A stretch of 23,864 nt of DNA, from IMG/VR virus record IMGVR_UViG_3300045999_006906, positions 1-23,864 of that record; one strand, 5' to 3'. Both the position numbers and the translations under genes were made by a program. Shown in pieces: positions 481-21,445 of the stretch (its first letter is position 1; the number at the start of each line of letters is the position of its first letter). The notes under the pieces were generated by a model. The model did not search any database. It was not told the origin of the DNA and saw only the letters and a program-made list of their open reading frames with translations. Source of the DNA: a virus.

Positions 481-674
481 GAATGTTTTATCGCATGGCA
501 GGGAAGGACTTAACGAAGATGGACGCGGTCATGGCGATGCCGCTCATGGAGTTCTTCAACTATGCTGCCCTTCTGAAGACGATTGATAGGGATCGAGAAG
601 ATAGGTTAAATCGGGCAAGCACTGCAGGGCCAGAATTTTACATGGCGCAACTCATGTGGGAACTTAAGCAATGA
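390..674 (+). CDS. C-terminal half of tail chaperone, in the -1 frame
   Basis: This frame is open from 300 to 672 and stops at 672-674. Read from the slip site it gives an acidic linker, then DWLGMFYRMAGKDLTKMDAV and a PLMEFFNYAALLK segment. This resembles the C-terminal part that, in related phages, follows the chaperone N-terminal domain in one protein. It can be made as a -1 frameshift extension of the upstream gene, or start independently at ATG 483, two bases after the upstream stop, giving 63 residues. I favour the fusion because residues before 483 also look coding. It overlaps the large terminase start by four bases (ATGA), showing translational coupling. Confidence 0.55.
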   Translation, partial: FESLTRIIESFPHLFPAAGEEAEETSNDWLGMFYRMAGKDLTKMDAVMAMPLMEFFNYAALLKTIDRDREDRLNRASTAGPEFYMAQLMWELKQ

Positions 675-1855
675 AGATAAAGTACAACCGCCCACCGCTT
701 GCACCGTATCAAATCGCTATCCTCGACAGCACGGCGCGTTATACCGTCACGGCTGCCAGCACGAAGGCAGGCAAAACCGCTTCACATATTGTATGGCTGT
801 TTGAAAAGGCGCTTCAGGGAAAGAAAGGGCAGTCGTTTTGGTGGGTCGCTCCCGTGTATGGGCAGGCTGAAATCGCGTTCAGGCGGTTTAAGCAGCAATG
901 TTCCGAAAGGCTGTTTGAGGCAAACGAAAGTAAATTAAGATTGACCTTGCCCACCGGGGCAATGATTGAATTTAAGAGCGCGGAAAAGCCTGATAACCTT
1001 TACGGCGATGACGTTTACGCAGCTGTGTTTGATGAGTTCACCCGCGCCCGCGAAGAAGCATGGTTTGCGCTGCGTTCAACCCTGACAAAAACCCGAGGTC
1101 AATGCAAGCTTATCGGGAACGTGAAAGGGAAAAAAAACTGGGGCTACCGATTGGCAGAACGGGCAAGGCAGGGCGAAGATGGGTATGAGTTCCACAAAAT
1201 CACCGCTTGGGATGCAGTGAACGCGGGAATTTTAGAGAAAGAGGAAGTGGAACAGGCAGAACGAGACCTACCCGCGCACGTCTTCAAAGAACTTTACCTT
1301 GCCGAACCCGCCGACGATGATTCAAACCCTTTCGGACTGGACCACATACGGTCCTGTATCGAACCCCTTGCACCCGGTCCGGTGGAATGGTACGGAATTG
1401 ACCTTGCCAAAAGCAGGGACTGGACCGTCATTATTGGACTTAATCAGTCCAAAAAGGTAGCCTTCTTCGAGCGTTTCCGGCTTGACTGGAAGGCAACCCG
1501 CGACACGGTGCAGCGGATTGTTGGCAGAACGCCTGCGGTAATTGACTCCACGGGCGTTGGTGACCCGATAGTTGAAGACTTGCAGCGGGTTTGCCCAAGG
1601 ATTAAGGGCTTTAAATACACCTCGACAAGCAAACAGCAAATTATGGAAGACCTCGCAGGCGCAATCCACGGGCGGGAGGTTGTGTTTCCCGATGGCCCGA
1701 TAGTCGATGAACTCATGAACTTTGAATGGACACACACGCGCACGGGCATAAGCTACAACGCGCCTGAAGGGCTGCACGATGATTGTGTGAACGGGCTGGC
1801 ACTTGCCCTGCATTGCAGCCGCGTAAACAAGAAAGGGCTATTTCTACTGACATGA
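671..1855 (+). CDS. terL: Terminase large subunit
   Basis: ATP-driven DNA packaging motor and headful/cos nuclease acting at the portal of the empty prohead. The 394-residue protein has an N-terminal ATPase with a Walker A-like loop (STKAGKT, residues 30-36), a Walker B (AAVFDE, 117-122, with D121/E122 as the acidic pair), and a coupling region near residue 149 (IGN). The C-terminal RNase H-like nuclease shows three acidic positions: GIDLAKSRD (D244), IDSTGVGDP (D292) and GLHDDC (D370/D371). It is short for a large terminase but complete. The ATG at 671 overlaps the stop of the upstream chaperone frame, and its own TGA overlaps the next start (ATGA at 1852-1855). The small subunit is not adjacent; a candidate lies on the other strand at 15313-15711. 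Confidence 0.93.
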   Translation: MKIKYNRPPLAPYQIAILDSTARYTVTAASTKAGKTASHIVWLFEKALQGKKGQSFWWVAPVYGQAEIAFRRFKQQCSERLFEANESKLRLTLPTGAMIEFKSAEKPDNLYGDDVYAAVFDEFTRAREEAWFALRSTLTKTRGQCKLIGNVKGKKNWGYRLAERARQGEDGYEFHKITAWDAVNAGILEKEEVEQAERDLPAHVFKELYLAEPADDDSNPFGLDHIRSCIEPLAPGPVEWYGIDLAKSRDWTVIIGLNQSKKVAFFERFRLDWKATRDTVQRIVGRTPAVIDSTGVGDPIVEDLQRVCPRIKGFKYTSTSKQQIMEDLAGAIHGREVVFPDGPIVDELMNFEWTHTRTGISYNAPEGLHDDCVNGLALALHCSRVNKKGLFLLT

Positions 1856-2992: not shown

Positions 2993-3958
2993 TTACAGGG
3001 TGAAGTACACGATTTGAGTGGGGAAAGCAACCTGAACGCCGTATTTGAACTCAGCGTTAAAGATTACGTTTTTCTTCACAGGGTCAGAGATGAACTCAAA
3101 GTTCTCCTCTTCGCCTACAAGGTCAGTACCGATGAAGTAGTTTGACCAGTAGCTGAAGTGGATTTTGTTCGAGCCATTCAAGCCGGGCAGACCATAGACC
3201 TTGGTGCCTGTGATAGGTTCAATTACCATGAACTGCTCACCTGTTTCAGGATTGTAGTGATAGTTGTTAGCCGCGATGAGGTGCTGCTTGTACAAAAGGA
3301 AGGTATCAACGCCCATTGCGAAGAAGCGGTCTTCTTTGGCCAAAATCGCCTTGCCGTCAGTGCTTGCCTGCGCCTGATTAATCATCTTCAGGATGGCATC
3401 ATCGATGTTGGAAACAGTCAAAGATGTCAGCTGAGTCCAGCCGCCTCCGGTGGTGGGGTTACCTTCGATAGGGTCGCCTGCGCCACCGAATCCAAGAGCG
3501 GTAAGAATGGTGTTGAAACCGTCGAACTGGTTTGCAGCGATAGTTCCCTGCCAGATGTCTTCTTCCAGAGCATCAGCGATTTTGCCGATTTTCTCGTTTC
3601 CGATTTGGTCAGCGAAAGGCAGTTCATTGTCGCCACCTGAACCAGCAGCCATTTGGGTCTGCATCCACTTGGTTTTCAGTGTCTTAGGACACAAGGTTTC
3701 ATAAACCTGAATGTCGCCAACGCTCAGAGTGCGCTTGCTGAAAGTTGTGCTTCCAGAGGTGGTAGGTTCGCAGCCGTTTGCCTGGAAGAAAACGGTGGAA
3801 TCAAGGATGTTCAGGTTGTCGCTGGTTTTGATACCTGGGATTACTTGACCAGCACCTTGCAAAAGGCTGGCTGTTTTGCCTCCGAAGAGGGCTTTGTACA
3901 GGAGCGGAAGGCGGTCTTCTTTCCCGTAATTGTCGAGGTCACTTACTACGAATGCCAT
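2993..3958 (-). CDS. Major capsid protein
   Basis: 321 residues; assigned as the shell-forming subunit by order (protease/scaffold gene immediately upstream, tail tube downstream) and by general character. It has an N-terminal helical part (LDNYGKEDRLPLLYKALFGG), a central Gly-rich loop and beta segments, a region (EEDIWQGTI, then a DDAILKMINQAQ helix) typical of phage capsid folds, and an aromatic, beta-rich C-terminus ending in VYFTL. The start is two bases after the protease-scaffold stop, with an A-rich leader (AAACCAACAAATAAAC) but no Shine-Dalgarno sequence. It is followed by a strong hairpin. HK97-type fold is likely but not proven by eye. Confidence 0.8.
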   Translation of the reverse strand: MAFVVSDLDNYGKEDRLPLLYKALFGGKTASLLQGAGQVIPGIKTSDNLNILDSTVFFQANGCEPTTSGSTTFSKRTLSVGDIQVYETLCPKTLKTKWMQTQMAAGSGGDNELPFADQIGNEKIGKIADALEEDIWQGTIAANQFDGFNTILTALGFGGAGDPIEGNPTTGGGWTQLTSLTVSNIDDAILKMINQAQASTDGKAILAKEDRFFAMGVDTFLLYKQHLIAANNYHYNPETGEQFMVIEPITGTKVYGLPGLNGSNKIHFSYWSNYFIGTDLVGEEENFEFISDPVKKNVIFNAEFKYGVQVAFPTQIVYFTL

Positions 3959-13436: not shown

Positions 13437-14462
13437 TTATTTTTTCACCAGCACTTCAGTCAGCACCGCTATCCGGTCAAGATTCACCTTGTGCAAATCG
13501 CCGTTCTTTTCCAGATACGCCGCGTTGGGCCTGCCGTCTAACTTGCCTTCGTACGCCTCATACAGCCGCGCCTTCCATTCTTTAACGCCGGATGCGGTGT
13601 AAACGCCTAACGAGGCGTGGTCATGGTAAGGGCCGAAGTCTGAAGCAATGACGGGCAGCGAATAGCAGCCAGCCTCTTTTACTTTGATATCCGATTTGCA
13701 GAGGTTGAATTGCGAGGTAACCAGCGGGGCCAGCACCACATCCAAACGGGAAAGATAAATGCCGTATTGCGAAGGGTGAACCCCGGGGCGCAGCTTCAGC
13801 CAGTCAGGATGCCCGACAGGTGCAACATCGTTTCCTACCGCCTGCCATTCTGGATCCTTTTCATCGTACCCGCAAATGTTGTACTCGCTGCCAGTTTCTT
13901 CGCAGAACTCCCTAACCGCTTGGCTGATGGTGAACAGGTCATACCGATGCGACCGGCTGCCGACGAATCCAACGCGGAATTTGTCGCTTGGTTCTTTCTC
14001 CTGATTCCATTGCAGTTCCGTAAGGTTCAAAGCATTAGGGATAGTGTAAACGTTGCGGTTCACTTTGTACACCTGTTCCCGGAGGCGGTCATTTTCGCAG
14101 ATAACAGCGTCCGCGTGGTACAAAGCCGCCTGCACTTTAGCAGATAGCCCACGCCGTTTCCACTCATCAACAGCTGGATTATATCGGTTGAGCATCCAGT
14201 AGTCATCAATGTCCACGATGAACGGAATACCTCTGGTATTGAGGATGGAAATAATCTGCTCCTGCGGTTCAGCTAAAGTACCGTTCCAAATTACAAGGTC
14301 GTATTTATCAAGGTCTGGCAGCGGGCGGTAATTGCCGTTCTCATCCCGTGGACTCCAAATGTCTATCTGCGCGAAGCCGCGAATCTGCAAGTCATGGAGT
14401 GGGGCGTATAGGCGGTGGTAAGAAATGCCGCTCATGCCGTTGAGTATGCCGAGTATCTTCAT
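13437..14462 (-). CDS. Glycosyltransferase, GT4-like (GT-B fold)
   Basis: 341 residues. The protein would transfer a sugar from a nucleotide-sugar donor to an unknown acceptor in the cytoplasm. The N-terminal Rossmann half begins MKILGILNGMSGISYHRLYA and includes VDIDDYW (83-89) and CENDRLREQV. The second half shows VGFVGSRSHRYD (164-175) and the donor-binding motif KSDIKVKEAGCYSLPVIAS (256-274), with Glu263 in the position typical for GT4. No membrane segment or signal is present. It overlaps the previous gene stop (ATGA). With a methyltransferase and a GT9-like gene 1.5-2.8 kb upstream, it may act on phage DNA, virion proteins or host glycan; substrate not evident. Confidence 0.8.
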   Translation of the reverse strand: MKILGILNGMSGISYHRLYAPLHDLQIRGFAQIDIWSPRDENGNYRPLPDLDKYDLVIWNGTLAEPQEQIISILNTRGIPFIVDIDDYWMLNRYNPAVDEWKRRGLSAKVQAALYHADAVICENDRLREQVYKVNRNVYTIPNALNLTELQWNQEKEPSDKFRVGFVGSRSHRYDLFTISQAVREFCEETGSEYNICGYDEKDPEWQAVGNDVAPVGHPDWLKLRPGVHPSQYGIYLSRLDVVLAPLVTSQFNLCKSDIKVKEAGCYSLPVIASDFGPYHDHASLGVYTASGVKEWKARLYEAYEGKLDGRPNAAYLEKNGDLHKVNLDRIAVLTEVLVKK

Positions 14463-14686
14463 TTGTTTCCAGGTCTTAAATCATTCAAATGTATTTTAAC
14501 GTCACACCAATAGCGACATTCAGATGAATTTGCCCAATGAGCGCAATTGTATTTGTCATCATCTGCTTCGAGAAAATCAAACAATTCATCTACAACTTTA
14601 ATTGCGCAATCTGCCGCAATTGAATAATTACTTGTCAGAGTGCCGTAGTAATTAAACAGTTCATATGCCTTTTCTTTAGCTGTCAT
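14459..14686 (-). CDS. Small conserved phage protein
   Basis: 75 residues. An N-terminal helix (AKEKAYELFNYY), a second helix with Cys (SIAADCAIKVVDELFDFLEADDD) and a C-terminal segment (CAHWANSSECRYWCDVKIHLNDL) with several Cys/Trp. This arrangement resembles very common small proteins of Bacteroidota phages beginning KEKA.EL, of unknown role. Both ends overlap neighbours as ATGA. No catalytic motif. Function unknown. Confidence 0.7.
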   Translation of the reverse strand: MTAKEKAYELFNYYGTLTSNYSIAADCAIKVVDELFDFLEADDDKYNCAHWANSSECRYWCDVKIHLNDLRPGNK

Positions 14687-15036
14687 GTTAGTTTGCCTTT
14701 GAAATGTTCGATTAGCCGCTCCATGTGGTGTTCGTAGAATGACGCGAACGAGCCAAAGCCCTGGTCATTCTGTTCATAGTTTCGATACAGCACAGCGCGC
14801 AGCCGTGAACCTGGTGTTTTGCCGCCTGCCTCGGGGTCGGCCTTAAGCTGGTCCAATAACGCTTCTTCTTCGCCGCTGAAGTATTCAGGCTTGATGGCAA
14901 CGTATGCAAGCTGGTGATTTAACGTGAGCAGGGCCGCCGCTTTATCCACGGGTAATTCCTGCGTGCCGAGTGTCACCTTCCACGTCCTGTCCTTGCGCGT
15001 TGTTACGCCTTCAATCGTTGCCGGGAGTATTATCAT
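14683..15036 (-). CDS. Conserved phage protein of unknown function
   Basis: 117 residues from ATG 15036; the preceding codon is TTG, so an extra residue is possible. The N-terminus (ILPATIEGVTTRKDRTWKVTLGTQELP) is a beta hairpin; then a helical middle and PGSRLRAVLYRNYEQND lead to a C-terminal helix (FASFYEHHMERLIEHFK). I recall this pattern (IPATIE..., ...FKGKL) in many Bacteroidota phages, often in the replication or nucleotide-metabolism area. It overlaps the DUF3310 gene by 26 bases and the next gene as ATGA. Function unknown. Confidence 0.75.
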   Translation of the reverse strand: MIILPATIEGVTTRKDRTWKVTLGTQELPVDKAAALLTLNHQLAYVAIKPEYFSGEEEALLDQLKADPEAGGKTPGSRLRAVLYRNYEQNDQGFGSFASFYEHHMERLIEHFKGKLT

Positions 15037-15316
15037 CAATCAGCCAATTAAGATAAACACGGGCTTTCTCCAAGTCCTGCAGACCGCCCTTTTTCTCATA
15101 ACGCCACAGGTACTTCATGATATTGCCCTTCAGGTAGCCGCGATAGCCAACAGGCGAAAGGCTGGCTTTAATTGCAGCGATGCACTCCACCGCGCCTTTG
15201 TAATGGTCAGGGTCGTGAGGTTGGTCTGTTTTGGATTTGCTTTGCATTCGTGCTTTGTATTGTTCTTTGGTGATGTTCATGACAACCTTTCGACCTACCC
15301 TGCTAATGATGCTCAT
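15011..15316 (-). CDS. DUF3310 family protein
   Basis: 101 residues. The core DPDHYKGAVECIAAIK, then GYLKGNIMKYLWRYEKKGGLQDLEKARVYLNWLI matches the DUF3310 (SaV-like) family, small phage proteins often found with nucleotide metabolism or replication genes; the molecular role is not established. The N-terminal 30 residues are basic and of low conservation. The ATG at 15316 was chosen because it overlaps the small terminase stop (ATGA); an internal Met at residue 13 is an alternative. The C-terminus overlaps the next gene. Confidence 0.85.
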   Translation of the reverse strand: MSIISRVGRKVVMNITKEQYKARMQSKSKTDQPHDPDHYKGAVECIAAIKASLSPVGYRGYLKGNIMKYLWRYEKKGGLQDLEKARVYLNWLIDDNTPGND

Positions 15317-15711
15317 TGTGTCAGGTTCATGGTAACGGTGATTTCCCCTTCATGCTCGATGGTTGTTTTATCCTTCCAGCCGTGGTTGCACTTCAGGTCG
15401 AAGATGATTCCGGTTGTGTTGCCCTCCCCATTCAGCAGCGCGATTTGCTTTGCATCGTGGATTTCGGCGTGGATACTTTTTATAGTGCGGGAAAATTCTT
15501 CGCGTTGTGCATATTCATCAAGTGTGTTCCTGTCCATTTTCATGAATCGGCAGAACTCCCCAACGGTAGGAACGCGGGGTGTTGGAACATCCACCAACTT
15601 TCCGGAGTTGCTCAACACCGATTTAGTGAAGGTGGCACAATGAGCCATGTATTCGTCAAATGCCTGCTGCAATGCTTCAGGGCTTTCTATTTTGCGTGGT
15701 CGTCCTTTCAT
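15313..15711 (-). CDS. terS: Terminase small subunit
   Basis: 132 residues. Binds phage DNA to start packaging and hands it to the large subunit. It opens KGRPRKIESPEALQQAFDEY, continues with a helix-turn-helix (PTVGEFCRFMKMDRNTLDEY, then EEFSRTIKSI), and ends with GIIFDLKCNHGWKDK, a tail common in small subunits of the DNA-packaging gp3-like type. It overlaps the upstream HNH gene by 35 bases and the next gene as ATGA. Most phages keep it next to the large subunit; here the large subunit is 13.5 kb away on the other strand. The call is good but from pattern recall. Confidence 0.8.
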   Translation of the reverse strand: MKGRPRKIESPEALQQAFDEYMAHCATFTKSVLSNSGKLVDVPTPRVPTVGEFCRFMKMDRNTLDEYAQREEFSRTIKSIHAEIHDAKQIALLNGEGNTTGIIFDLKCNHGWKDKTTIEHEGEITVTMNLTQ

Positions 15712-15958
15712 TGAGTTTCTCAGTTACGATTTGTCGTAAATACTCTTTCGGCAATCCCGTGCCAAAGTCAGCCTCATGATGGCAGCTTCTGCACAGGGCG
15801 ATAAGGTTTTCAGGCGTGTCCCGTGATTTGCTCCCGCCCATCCCCCTTGCCTGTATGTGGTGGATGTCCACCGCCTGCCCTCCGCAGACTTCGCAGGGGA
15901 TGAAATCGGTTTGTGTGAGGTTGCGTGCTTCAAGGTAAATCTTTTTGTAGGCTTTCAC
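15677..15958 (-). CDS. HNH endonuclease
   Basis: 93 residues, a single HNH domain: CEVC (C22, C25), DIHHI (H33/H34), NLIALC (N51) and CRSCHHEAD (C56, C59, H60). The Cys quartet binds zinc and the His/Asn residues form the nuclease site. Small HNH proteins beside the terminase are known to take part in DNA cleavage for packaging in HK97-like phages. The start codon is GTG at 15958, overlapping the methyltransferase stop (GTGA). It overlaps the start of the small terminase, supporting a packaging role rather than a free homing nuclease. Confidence 0.85.
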   Translation of the reverse strand: MKAYKKIYLEARNLTQTDFIPCEVCGGQAVDIHHIQARGMGGSKSRDTPENLIALCRSCHHEADFGTGLPKEYLRQIVTEKLNERTTTQNRKP

Positions 15959-16509
15959 TTTTGAATGATCACCTCAATCGAAAATTCCCCGTTGTTGTGT
16001 TCCTCCGGACGGTCTGCATTGGTTGCCGTGTCAATCACCCGCATTTCGTAATCAAACGGGAAAGTGAACGCAGCGTGCAACAACCCCGCAACGCTGAACG
16101 TGTGTGGCGGTTCGCAAGCAAAGGGAAGGTAGAAGTACTTGTGGTCTTCGTTCCATCGTGAAGGCAGCGTTTTCTTGCGCTCGTATAGGTCGCGATGTGG
16201 CAAGCTGATGATGATATGCCCACCCTTTTTGCAAATGCGATACCAGTTCTTCAGGGCCGTTACTGGGTCGGAAATGTGTTCCAACACGTGCGATGCGTAA
16301 ACGTAGTCGAATGTGTCATCTGCGTAAACGTCCATAGTTGTCGCGTCGCAAATGTCCTTGTCATGGTGAACAGCATCTTGGCTGATTGTGTCCTGCCCAT
16401 CATGCGTATCAATGCGCCCGCATCCAATGTCAATGCCCTGCCCTTTGATGTACTTTTCGAAGAAGCCTTCTTGAAAGCGTCGTGCGTATGCTTTGCGTGT
16501 TTCTGCCAT
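15955..16509 (-). CDS. SAM-dependent methyltransferase (class I)
   Basis: 184 residues from ATG 16509, which overlaps the GT9-like stop (TAATG); a longer frame begins further upstream but lies inside that gene. The Rossmann core shows motif I GIDIGCGRI (25-33), an acidic second-strand region, and FDYVYASHVLEHISDP (67-82), the hallmark of the Methyltransf_11 group, followed by KKGGHIIISLPHRD. There is no target-recognition domain and no cytosine or adenine motif (PC or DPPY), so it is probably not a classical DNA methylase. Such enzymes often methylate sugars or small molecules; next to glycosyltransferases a glycan target is plausible but inferred. Confidence 0.85.
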   Translation of the reverse strand: MAETRKAYARRFQEGFFEKYIKGQGIDIGCGRIDTHDGQDTISQDAVHHDKDICDATTMDVYADDTFDYVYASHVLEHISDPVTALKNWYRICKKGGHIIISLPHRDLYERKKTLPSRWNEDHKYFYLPFACEPPHTFSVAGLLHAAFTFPFDYEMRVIDTATNADRPEEHNNGEFSIEVIIQK

Positions 16510-17294
16510 TAGGATGGGTTTATGATAATGGGCGTTTCCGGATTTTGTTCCATGCGGGCCAATCTGTCCACGTGCCACTTCATGTTTTCGTTGTTGTACA
16601 CTACGCCCCAGTTTTCACCCGTGCTTACCACATTCGGGCAGTAGGGCGAAAGTTCAAGAACGCGGGGCAGGTCGAATATCTCCGAAACGGCAAATGGTGA
16701 AGATTGGTTGCCAAAGTGCATTAGGCCCCCTGCGATTACCTTTGCCATTATCAGGAAGTCATCCGTATTAACGTGATTCGCTTTCGGGCAAAGTTTCGCG
16801 AACTTTTCAAATTCTTGCTGCAGACCGATGAAAAACACATCGTAGGGCTGTTCCTGCAGCATCGCCCACTTTGCATCACCTCCCGCCGCGTTATTCCTGT
16901 ACCGCTCCGAAAGGTTCACGGTGATGTATCCATTGTTCAGGCGATTGATGCGGAACGCAGGCCCGGGCAGCAGTTCAGGGTAAACCGAAAGTATCCAACG
17001 GCGAATATCGTATGCACTCAGGTTGATGCGTTCTTCACGGAATAGGTCAAGATTGTAATCAACTTTTTCACCGTGCCACAATTCGCACTTGATGCCGCAA
17101 TACTCCACCAATGGGCGCAACATATTGCACATGGTTTCGTTGAGCATCACACCCCCTCCTGGATGGGTCAGGCCGGCAGCGTATTGTGCAGGTCGGTCAG
17201 GGTTAAGGTATAATGTGCCGCCGCCGTTTGCCCGGATGGTTGGCAGCATATAAATCACATCGCCGGCGTTGCCGCTGTGTAGGTAGGTCTTCAT
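16509..17294 (-). CDS. Glycosyltransferase, GT9/heptosyltransferase-like
   Basis: 261 residues. The N-terminus KTYLHSGNAGDVIYMLPTIR matches the opening strand and Gly loop of GT9 enzymes (H-x-GD-x-I), and the C-terminal half has the donor-site style motif GLMHFGNQSSPFAVSEIFDL, followed by PRVLELSP and CPNVV. It lacks a signal peptide and membrane segment, so acts in the cytoplasm. In host bacteria such enzymes build lipopolysaccharide; in a phage the acceptor is unknown. Both ends are translationally coupled (ATGA with the previous gene, TAATG with the methyltransferase). Shorter than host heptosyltransferases (about 350), so it may be a minimal form. Confidence 0.75.
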   Translation of the reverse strand: MKTYLHSGNAGDVIYMLPTIRANGGGTLYLNPDRPAQYAAGLTHPGGGVMLNETMCNMLRPLVEYCGIKCELWHGEKVDYNLDLFREERINLSAYDIRRWILSVYPELLPGPAFRINRLNNGYITVNLSERYRNNAAGGDAKWAMLQEQPYDVFFIGLQQEFEKFAKLCPKANHVNTDDFLIMAKVIAGGLMHFGNQSSPFAVSEIFDLPRVLELSPYCPNVVSTGENWGVVYNNENMKWHVDRLARMEQNPETPIIINPS

Positions 17295-20701: not shown

Positions 20702-21445
20702 TCAATATCTCAAATTTACTTTATCGCGCCGGCGATAGTTGTAAATTTCTTCGATAAGTGAAACGTATTGTGCAGTAGTTTGGCAATCAAACAAAACTGA
20801 TGGTTGAGTACGTAGTTTTGCAATAAACTCTGTTAATTCAAACTGTGCTTTATTTAGAACTTGCGTCATTGCCATAATGAAACATATTCTTTTGTAGCCT
20901 TCATAAAATGGTGCAATAAGTAAAATAGCTTCAGCAATTTCTACAGCACGTTTATATGACCCTATTTGAAATTGACCATTGTAAAACTGCTTTACCAATG
21001 ACCCAGACGCATCAGCCGTATGACCACGAAGCAAAGACATACAGCATTTGTGCGGAAAATCATACTTGTCTTTAAACTGTTTGTAGCGGATGTAATCCGA
21101 TTTACCGAGTTTCACATACCCCTCGAGGTAATCATCCGCGTTCCAAGTTTTTGAATTTGCATTAAGAATTTGAACTTGCTCTAATCCATAGCCTTCGCAG
21201 ATGATGTAATGCAGTGGCAATCCAAACTCCTTTACAGCTTCAAACCTATGCTGCCCATCAATGATTTCAAACCGCTCATTCACGATGATGATGGTGAACA
21301 AATAGTTTTCCTGAATGGATTTTTTTAGCCGCTGAAGGTGCAACAGGTTAAGGTTGCGGTTGCCGTCAATGGAAGTAAATCTTCCGTAGTCTGTGGTTGT
21401 GTGAACTTGGCGCAGTGCCATTGGTTCGATTGTTTTGTTTGTCAT
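20702..21445 (-). CDS. ParB-like nuclease-domain protein (DGQHR)
   Basis: 247 residues. The N-terminal part has a ParB/Srx-type fold with LQRLKKSIQENYLF and the signature IIDGQHRFEA (61-70), which binds nucleotide in ParB-like domains. The middle continues with a conserved run (EQVQILNANSKTWNADDYLEGY, about 90-110); the C-terminal half is helical, contains Cys residues (CCMSLLRG) and resembles a DNA-binding region. Known roles in this group include nicking DNA, partition and regulation; which applies here is not visible. It starts at ATG 21445, 23 bases after the DnaA-like stop, and lies between the DnaA-like gene and the replication initiator, so a replication role is plausible. Confidence 0.75.
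   Translation of the reverse strand: MTNKTIEPMALRQVHTTTDYGRFTSIDGNRNLNLLHLQRLKKSIQENYLFTIIIVNERFEIIDGQHRFEAVKEFGLPLHYIICEGYGLEQVQILNANSKTWNADDYLEGYVKLGKSDYIRYKQFKDKYDFPHKCCMSLLRGHTADASGSLVKQFYNGQFQIGSYKRAVEIAEAILLIAPFYEGYKRICFIMAMTQVLNKAQFELTEFIAKLRTQPSVLFDCQTTAQYVSLIEEIYNYRRRDKVNLRY

Follow-up and report, generated by a model that had tools for sequence, protein, structure and literature searches.

Genes at the locus

Three enzyme genes lie on the minus strand between positions 13437 and 17294 of the window, meaning the whole 23,864-nucleotide stretch of DNA that was analysed. They encode a GT9-like glycosyltransferase, a methyltransferase and a GT4-type glycosyltransferase, and the open reading frames given by a sequence-only reading of the same DNA (16509-17294, 15955-16578 and 13437-14462) were confirmed, with the methyltransferase start corrected to 16509. 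The source is an uncultivated water phage. Five more genes share the span, and consequently the enzyme genes are interleaved with packaging genes rather than contiguous. All five are on the minus strand: an HNH endonuclease gene (15677..15958; Pfam HNH, E=1.4e-7), the terminase small subunit gene TerS (GP3_package, 15313..15711; Pfam PF16677, E=4e-20), a DUF3310 gene outside the module assignment (15011..15316; E=9.3e-19), and two small genes without a Pfam match, for a conserved protein of 118 aa (14683..15039; cluster c3, 47 members) and one of 75 aa (14459..14686). The large subunit gene, TerL, is on the plus strand at 671..1855 (Pfam Terminase_6N, E=2e-8). The window also encodes the MCP (2993-3958) and a presumed tail protein (2402-2917). 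No RNA families or tRNAs were found in the window. Placement of the set in an "early operon", as originally described, proved inexact: the genes sit between the replication and the structural genes with TerS among them, and in a sister clade TerL directly follows GT4, mostly overlapping it. Overlap of GT4 and TerL in 62 of 78 loci suggests late expression.

The GT9-like protein (261 aa; 16509..17294, minus strand) found no match in Pfam, PHROGs, NCBIfam or a PDB sequence search, nor did a profile of its family when searched against PDB sequences. Its AlphaFold model (pLDDT 84.5, pTM 0.85) has as its top PDB fold match WaaF (1psw; Z 15.1, 221 residues, rmsd 3.5), with WaaC (Z 14.9), a Veillonella GT9 enzyme (3tov; 14.0) and TibC (13.9) close by and sugar epimerases (Z 10.7) next after the GT9 enzymes; as judged from this model, heptosyltransferases are the closest GT-B fold. 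Profile-profile comparison of the family with four GT9-type proteins gave a probability of 87.7% (E=3.4e-6), against 0.1% for a GT4 control. Given that the Pfam GT9 model PF01075 finds no match at E<=1 in this protein, nor a match in its Bacteroidota homologues, the label "GT9-like" is used and the protein is not assigned as a GT9 member. The family alignment has 23 invariant columns, and G11-D12 is invariant in 19 sequences. In the fold alignment residue 1 of the model pairs with chain residue 2 of the GT9 structure, and by inferred position G11-D12 corresponds to the catalytic Asp13 of WaaC/WaaF (HepI), where the D13A change brings a 4688-fold loss (PMC5713226). The best structural match is a viral protein named as an FkbM methyltransferase (A0A6J5NY32), which is probably a GT9-methyltransferase fusion.

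The methyltransferase (type MT-A, 184 aa; 15955..16509, minus strand) matches Methyltransf_11 above the Pfam cut-off (E=7.6e-12), carries D27, G29 and G31 invariant across its aligned relatives, and has a model (pLDDT 84.7) whose best PDB matches, up to Z 13.0, are SAM methyltransferases; it has both the SAM-binding fold and the motif of class I enzymes. Its true start is ATG 16509, not the upstream GTG 16578 of the listed reading frame. The ATG overlaps the stop of the GT9-like gene as TAATG, and an N-terminus close to MAETxK is found in all aligned relatives. The GT4-type (GT-B) glycosyltransferase (341 aa; 13437..14462, minus strand) matches PHROG 7162, "glycosyltransferase", at E=2.1e-41, and matches the Pfam GT1/GT4 models below their cut-offs only (best E=0.0014, 19.4 bits vs 27). 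Its relatives in Phapecoctavirus, at 26-28% identity, sit in a four-gene glycosyltransferase cluster that has no annotated acceptor. NCBIfam offers no specific name for any of the three proteins. The enzyme classes, GT9-like included, had been called from the sequence alone, and fold matches, PHROG 7162 and Methyltransf_11 agree with them.

Conservation, exchange and cellular kinship

The module is conserved across a large group of uncultivated phages of ~31-37 kb that appear to be lytic. Among 53 loci collected by terminase bait alone, on contigs that are related rather than independent, GT4 stands upstream in every one, and GT9 and methyltransferase genes are present in 39. The other 14 form one clade that keeps GT4 and has no detectable GT9; four loci were read in that clade, and each contains a methyltransferase. 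Loci L243-L246 and L253 carry GT9 and then GT4 directly, without a methyltransferase. Most relatives, independently fetched contigs among them, retain the GT9-methyltransferase-GT4 linkage. Further, dN/dS against relatives is 0.03-0.14 for all three enzyme genes, indicating purifying selection, and this, taken with the linkage in independently fetched contigs, places the module beyond chance. Absence of the genes from close relatives had been named at the outset as an outcome that would count against a modification system; it was tested and did not occur, and the glycosyltransferase genes are a core of the group. The whole window has no DNA similarity to isolated phages, and neither the MCP nor the GT9-like protein has relatives among 50,697 phage records, so no isolate can serve as a guide. 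Phage_integrase was found in 0 of 26 records, the window and some records being fragments, and in all 14 control genomes. A lysogenic-conversion or serotype-conversion cassette was rejected on that count.

Between relatives the methyltransferase gene is swapped gene-exactly, with four non-homologous types in one slot and at least 16 changes of type on the GT9 tree. Homology of the window with three close relatives (L002/L003/L016) ends at 16513 and restarts at 15957-15960; positions 15955..16509 are the exchange slot, bordered downstream by the HNH gene, in which the whole gene is replaced by non-homologous methyltransferases. Tail-tip protein type and methyltransferase type are both present on only about six contigs.

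The GT9-like family is akin to Bacteroidota, occurring in the chromosomes of 10 of 395 Bacteroidota genomes and in 0 of 398 from Pseudomonadota; the Bacteroidota homologues lie in polysaccharide loci, with genes for GT2 and GT4 enzymes and for GDP-mannose dehydratase as neighbours. Bacterial relatives of MT-A are rare, and one of them (L137) has three flagellin genes before it and a glycosyltransferase after it. A huge-phage relative of MT-A (L345, 45%) has no GT9 or GT4 neighbours.

Candidate roles of the module

We give about an even chance to the proposal that the module makes a short, O-methylated glycan whose carrier is most likely a virion protein, with the methyltransferase as a replaceable cassette. 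The GT9-like and GT4 enzymes would each transfer one sugar from host nucleotide-sugars, the sugars and their order being conjectural, and the methyltransferase would methylate the glycan, most likely by giving it an O-methyl cap. Glycosylation of the acceptor would most likely be cytoplasmic and take place no later than virion assembly. With the glycosyltransferases forming the constant core and the methyltransferase replaceable, related phages would retain the backbone and alter its methyl decoration, and the benefit may lie in variation of surface chemistry. Both the methylated glycan and the decorated virion had been put forward from the sequence, and both gain support here, the latter as a candidate. 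The bolder statement, that the virions of a whole group of lytic Bacteroidota phages are coated with a glycan of host-derived type, of which only the methyl cap varies, serotype-like, by gene-exact exchange of non-homologous methyltransferases, is possible but doubtful. In waters antibodies are not the obvious pressure, and the variation, if real, would suggest that hosts, decoys or predators are the selecting agents.

The main rival places the acceptor on the host surface, and it would explain the linkage and the swaps about as well as a virion acceptor does: the module would alter LPS, capsule or S-layer glycans during infection, with swapped methyltransferases matching differing host glycans, and by masking receptors would keep progeny from binding debris or exclude rival phages. 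We regard this as rather unlikely. The GT9-like family is common to Bacteroidota polysaccharide loci, a bacterial relative of MT-A (L140) belongs to an LPS-core-like operon that also encodes GT9 heptosyltransferases and an O-antigen ligase, and cassette swapping resembles serotype variation. However, the 26 records contain no integrase, which speaks against lysogenic conversion of the classic kind, no genes for a flippase, a polymerase or sugar nucleotides were recognised adjoining the module, and the terminase linkage and overlap suggest late expression, when surface remodelling seems least useful. Quite improbable is a methyltransferase that acts outside the glycan pathway, in a slot that is simply a recombination-permissive site for unrelated methyltransferases with nucleic acid, protein or small-molecule substrates. 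The slot does accept several families, including a CmoB-like one (Methyltransf_9, which belongs to tRNA modification), and the bordering HNH gene could drive exchange; yet all occupants analysed are class I SAM methyltransferases of 184-217 aa and not random genes, three of the five bacterial MT-A relatives whose surroundings were read have glycosyltransferase, flagellin or LPS genes next to them, and the GT9-like protein's best structural match is the probable methyltransferase fusion described above.

Some viruses are known to modify DNA with glycosyltransferases, and the module could in principle likewise make a glycosylated, methylated base as a defence against restriction. In some relatives genuine DNA-modification genes, namely Mom (E=6.5e-51), TAGT (E=5e-35 and 3e-37) and Tet_JBP (E=4.7e-10), lie in the module's own operon, with a ParB-like gene on one side and TerS on the other, and co-expression with packaging genes therefore does not single out a virion protein. 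Against this stands the lack of a recognised source of hydroxylated bases, thymidylate-synthase-type hydroxymethylase (PF00303, Thymidylat_synt) being found in 0 of 26 records and Tet_JBP (PF12851) in 1, while TAGT occurs in 2, Mom in 1 and none of these in the window. The module persists with or without them, matches neither AGT/BGT nor other known DNA glycosyltransferase families, and a closely related sequence of 33,871 b, which spans the part missing from the 23.9 kb window, has no DNA-modification genes either. Modified DNA, one of the products first suggested for these genes, is thus disfavoured, and we consider it very improbable.

Comparison with known systems

Phage DNA hypermodification systems (TET/TAGT, Mom, T4 glucosyltransferases) touch the module only in that such genes share its operon in some relatives. 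The GT9-like protein resembles WaaC, WaaF and TibC in fold (Z 14-15) and in the position of the catalytic Gly-Asp, and differs in its ~12% identity, its shorter length and its failure to match Pfam GT9; TibC itself glycosylates protein directly (PMC4358343). In the region presumed to hold HepI D261, which with K192 is an ADP-heptose donor residue, the family conserves GNQS, whereas the ordinary GT9 proteins aligned carry a GDSGPMH-type motif, so the donor may differ. Flagellin glycosylation islands combine one to three glycosyltransferases with interchangeable methyltransferase families, and strains with the same glycosyltransferases differ in sugar-modifying enzymes (PMC4875605). They share with the module constant glycosyltransferases and variable methyltransferases, and the MT-A relative beside flagellin genes lies in such a setting; they differ in being cellular, in having flagellin as acceptor and often in containing sugar biosynthesis genes.

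In phages, the module has what marks virion-glycosylation modules, namely linked glycosyltransferases with a methyltransferase of sugar-modifying type. The cited literature documents virion glycosylation for mycobacteriophages only. PMC11600133, citing Freeman et al. 2023, describes cluster O phages, which are without lysogeny genes, as having an O-methyltransferase gene and, downstream of it, three tandem glycosyltransferases to which modification of the capsid and the tail tube is attributed. The system, first put forward as a candidate for an undescribed one, is therefore not wholly undescribed in kind. Like it, clusters O and F1 (Che8) are cases of a siphovirus that carries a small number of glycosyltransferases together with a methyltransferase (PMC11600133, PMC11256854). 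This likeness is one of gene content, the glycan and acceptor here being predictions; here, moreover, the host phylum is another, the GT9-like and GT4 genes are interleaved with terminase genes, and the methyltransferase is swapped. The GT9-like family is named by no library, and the swappable methyl cap would be a natural experiment on the purpose of glycan decoration, a question that interchangeable methyltransferases between conserved flanks make directly testable. If the virion reading is true, virion glycosylation, which the cited papers document for mycobacteriophages, would become a more general phage trait, since the glycan module belongs to the core genes of a widespread group of uncultivated phages.

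Three linked enzymes

The module is real, core, and under selection, and its GT9-like family is unnamed. The window, a fragment of a tailed phage (23,864 bases; IMG/VR virus record), carries the terminase large subunit (TerL) gene on its + strand. The - strand holds the genes for replication (DnaB-type helicase, DnaA C-terminal domain, ERF), those for structural proteins, with an XkdF-type protease among them, and the region with the three enzymes, all of which are real ORFs. The GT4-type glycosyltransferase (341 aa, 13437-14462) matches PHROG 7162 'glycosyltransferase' (E=2.1e-41), Pfam GT4 models matching below cut-offs only. The methyltransferase (15955-16509) matches Methyltransf_11 (E=7.6e-12); its start is placed at ATG 16509 because the relatives' proteins begin there, and overlaps the GT9 stop codon (TAATG). 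Searches of Pfam, PHROGs, NCBIfam and PDB sequences give no hit for the GT9-like glycosyltransferase (261 aa, 16509-17294), and the best structural matches of its AlphaFold model (pLDDT 84.5) are GT9 heptosyltransferases (WaaF, Z 15.1; WaaC, 14.9; a Veillonella GT9, 14.0; TibC, 13.9), followed by two chloroplast NDH-PSI chains (Z 12-13) and sugar epimerases (10.7). Likewise, profile comparison pairs the family with ordinary GT9 proteins at a probability of 87.7%, against 0.1% for phage GT4, and its invariant Gly-Asp pair aligns to Asp13 of heptosyltransferase I, mutation of which costs 4688-fold in activity (PMC5713226). The classes named by the sequence-only reading (GT4-like, GT9-like and Methyltransf_11) proved right. 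In BFVD the closest structure to the GT9 model is A0A6J5NY32 (467 aa; 25% identity over 247 columns), a viral protein named FkbM methyltransferase and probably a GT9-methyltransferase fusion. Elsewhere, in the replication region, a 247 aa protein (20702-21445) has weak ParB_N, DndB and GmrSD_N matches.

Viral contigs were scanned with the three enzymes and the capsid protein, yielding more than 130 and later about 330 loci, most of which have the order GT9, methyltransferase, GT4, often adjoining TerL; among 78 loci, 62 have GT4 and TerL overlapping. A second set was baited with terminase alone, so that the module itself does not drive selection. Restricted to contigs with 5 kb or more of upstream sequence, this set numbers 53, which share ancestry and are not independent events; GT4 lies upstream of terminase in all 53 and GT9 plus methyltransferase in 39. 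The remaining 14 are one clade; the four loci read lack a detectable GT9 and carry an extra Methyltransf_23 protein (189-192 aa) a few genes upstream of GT4. Measured against relatives, dN/dS (GT9 0.06-0.14, methyltransferase 0.05-0.07, GT4 0.03-0.06) resembles that of the major capsid protein (0.03-0.07), which argues that the module is not chance.

Exchange of the methyltransferase

METHYLTRANSFERASE is exchanged: non-homologous enzymes, MT-B (Methyltransf_9, CmoB-like) and MT-C (Methyltransf_23), stand in for the window's type (MT-A) in close relatives, and MT-D (Methyltransf_23) in more distant loci. A GT9 tree (121 rows, quick method) requires at least 16 changes among the four types. Locus L002 carries MT-B beside a GT9 97% identical to the window's; DNA homology between the two breaks off at 16513, immediately ahead of the GT9 stop codon, and restarts at 15960, the methyltransferase end. 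Every variant keeps a stop-start overlap at the junction (TAATG or TGATG for MT-A, ATGA for MT-B and MT-C). The replacement is gene-exact, one enzyme being swapped and both glycosyltransferases retained. Four loci encode, between MT-D and GT4, a protein of 245 aa (L232:2051-2788) that matches no Pfam model and might be an additional, third glycosyltransferase.

Bacterial kin

The GT9-like family occurs in 10 of 395 Bacteroidota genomes (E<=1e-68) and in 0 of 398 Pseudomonadota genomes; the ten exclude a phage-like contig from the MAG that served as centre and a weak hit on an ordinary GT9-like protein. Its Bacteroidota neighbours include GT2 and GT4 glycosyltransferases and GDP-mannose dehydratase; this distribution and these neighbours support a role in carbohydrate metabolism and hosts among the Bacteroidota. 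Only six relatives of MT-A occur in the bacterial genome collection, and their MAG-based placements may include binning errors. One belongs to a phage-type GT9-methyltransferase pair in a Flammeovirgaceae MAG, one (41% identity) is surrounded by GT9 heptosyltransferases and an O-antigen ligase, and a third lies among glycosyltransferases and a TylF O-methyltransferase. A further one, in a Comamonadaceae MAG (L137:10001-11143, 60% identity), comes immediately after three flagellin genes, with a glycosyltransferase gene following it, and likely serves flagellin glycan methylation; it is fused to TPR repeats.

Product and acceptor

Two sugar transferases, one from a host polysaccharide-type family, together with an interchangeable methyltransferase would most likely build an O-methylated glycan. 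Twenty-six records, many of them as long as full-length genomes of the group usually are, were searched for DNA-modification and integrase genes. Thymidylate-synthase-type hydroxymethylase appeared in 0/26, Tet_JBP in 1/26, TAGT in 2/26 and Mom in 1/26; the window has none of these and no integrase. A 33,871-base close relative encodes portal, holin, M15 peptidase, metallophosphatase, a PAPS-reductase-like protein, a tail fibre with an Mtd N-terminal domain and an N6/N4 DNA methylase, and nothing recognisable for making a hydroxylated base. Between the ParB-like gene and the terminase small subunit gene of relatives lies a variable slot, apparently a DNA-modification hot spot, where known modification genes come and go: Mom, TAGT (TET-associated glycosyltransferase), or Tet_JBP with an FkbM methyltransferase (L156:9132-10596, L043:3879-4721, L020:2157-3020, L166:5961-6734); L031:8239-9453 encodes a fusion of the ParB-like protein with a DNA methylase. 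These genes vary as GT9 and GT4 persist, and the module is therefore independent of them. Other observations in relatives are an N6/N4 DNA methylase gene immediately upstream of that for TerL (L135:2555-3178; absent from the window at 483-671), a 923 aa tail fibre with an N-terminal Mtd (major tropism determinant) domain (L135:7181-9949), and an early-region PAPS-reductase-like protein (L019:2171-2965, E=4.6e-9).

The main rival is that the module remodels the host surface. The lack of an integrase (0 of 26 records) argues against lysogenic conversion, and linkage to the terminase genes points to late expression; for both reasons we infer that the virion is the preferred acceptor. For such virion decoration the closest described case is that of the cluster O mycobacteriophages, which similarly combine glycosyltransferases with an O-methyltransferase: three tandem glycosyltransferases downstream of the latter reportedly modify the capsid and the tail tube (PMC11600133). 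Direct glycosylation of protein by a GT9-fold enzyme is exemplified by TibC (PMC4358343). Flagellin glycosylation islands, in which transferases are constant and sugar-modifying enzymes variable (PMC4875605), follow the same logic as the module.
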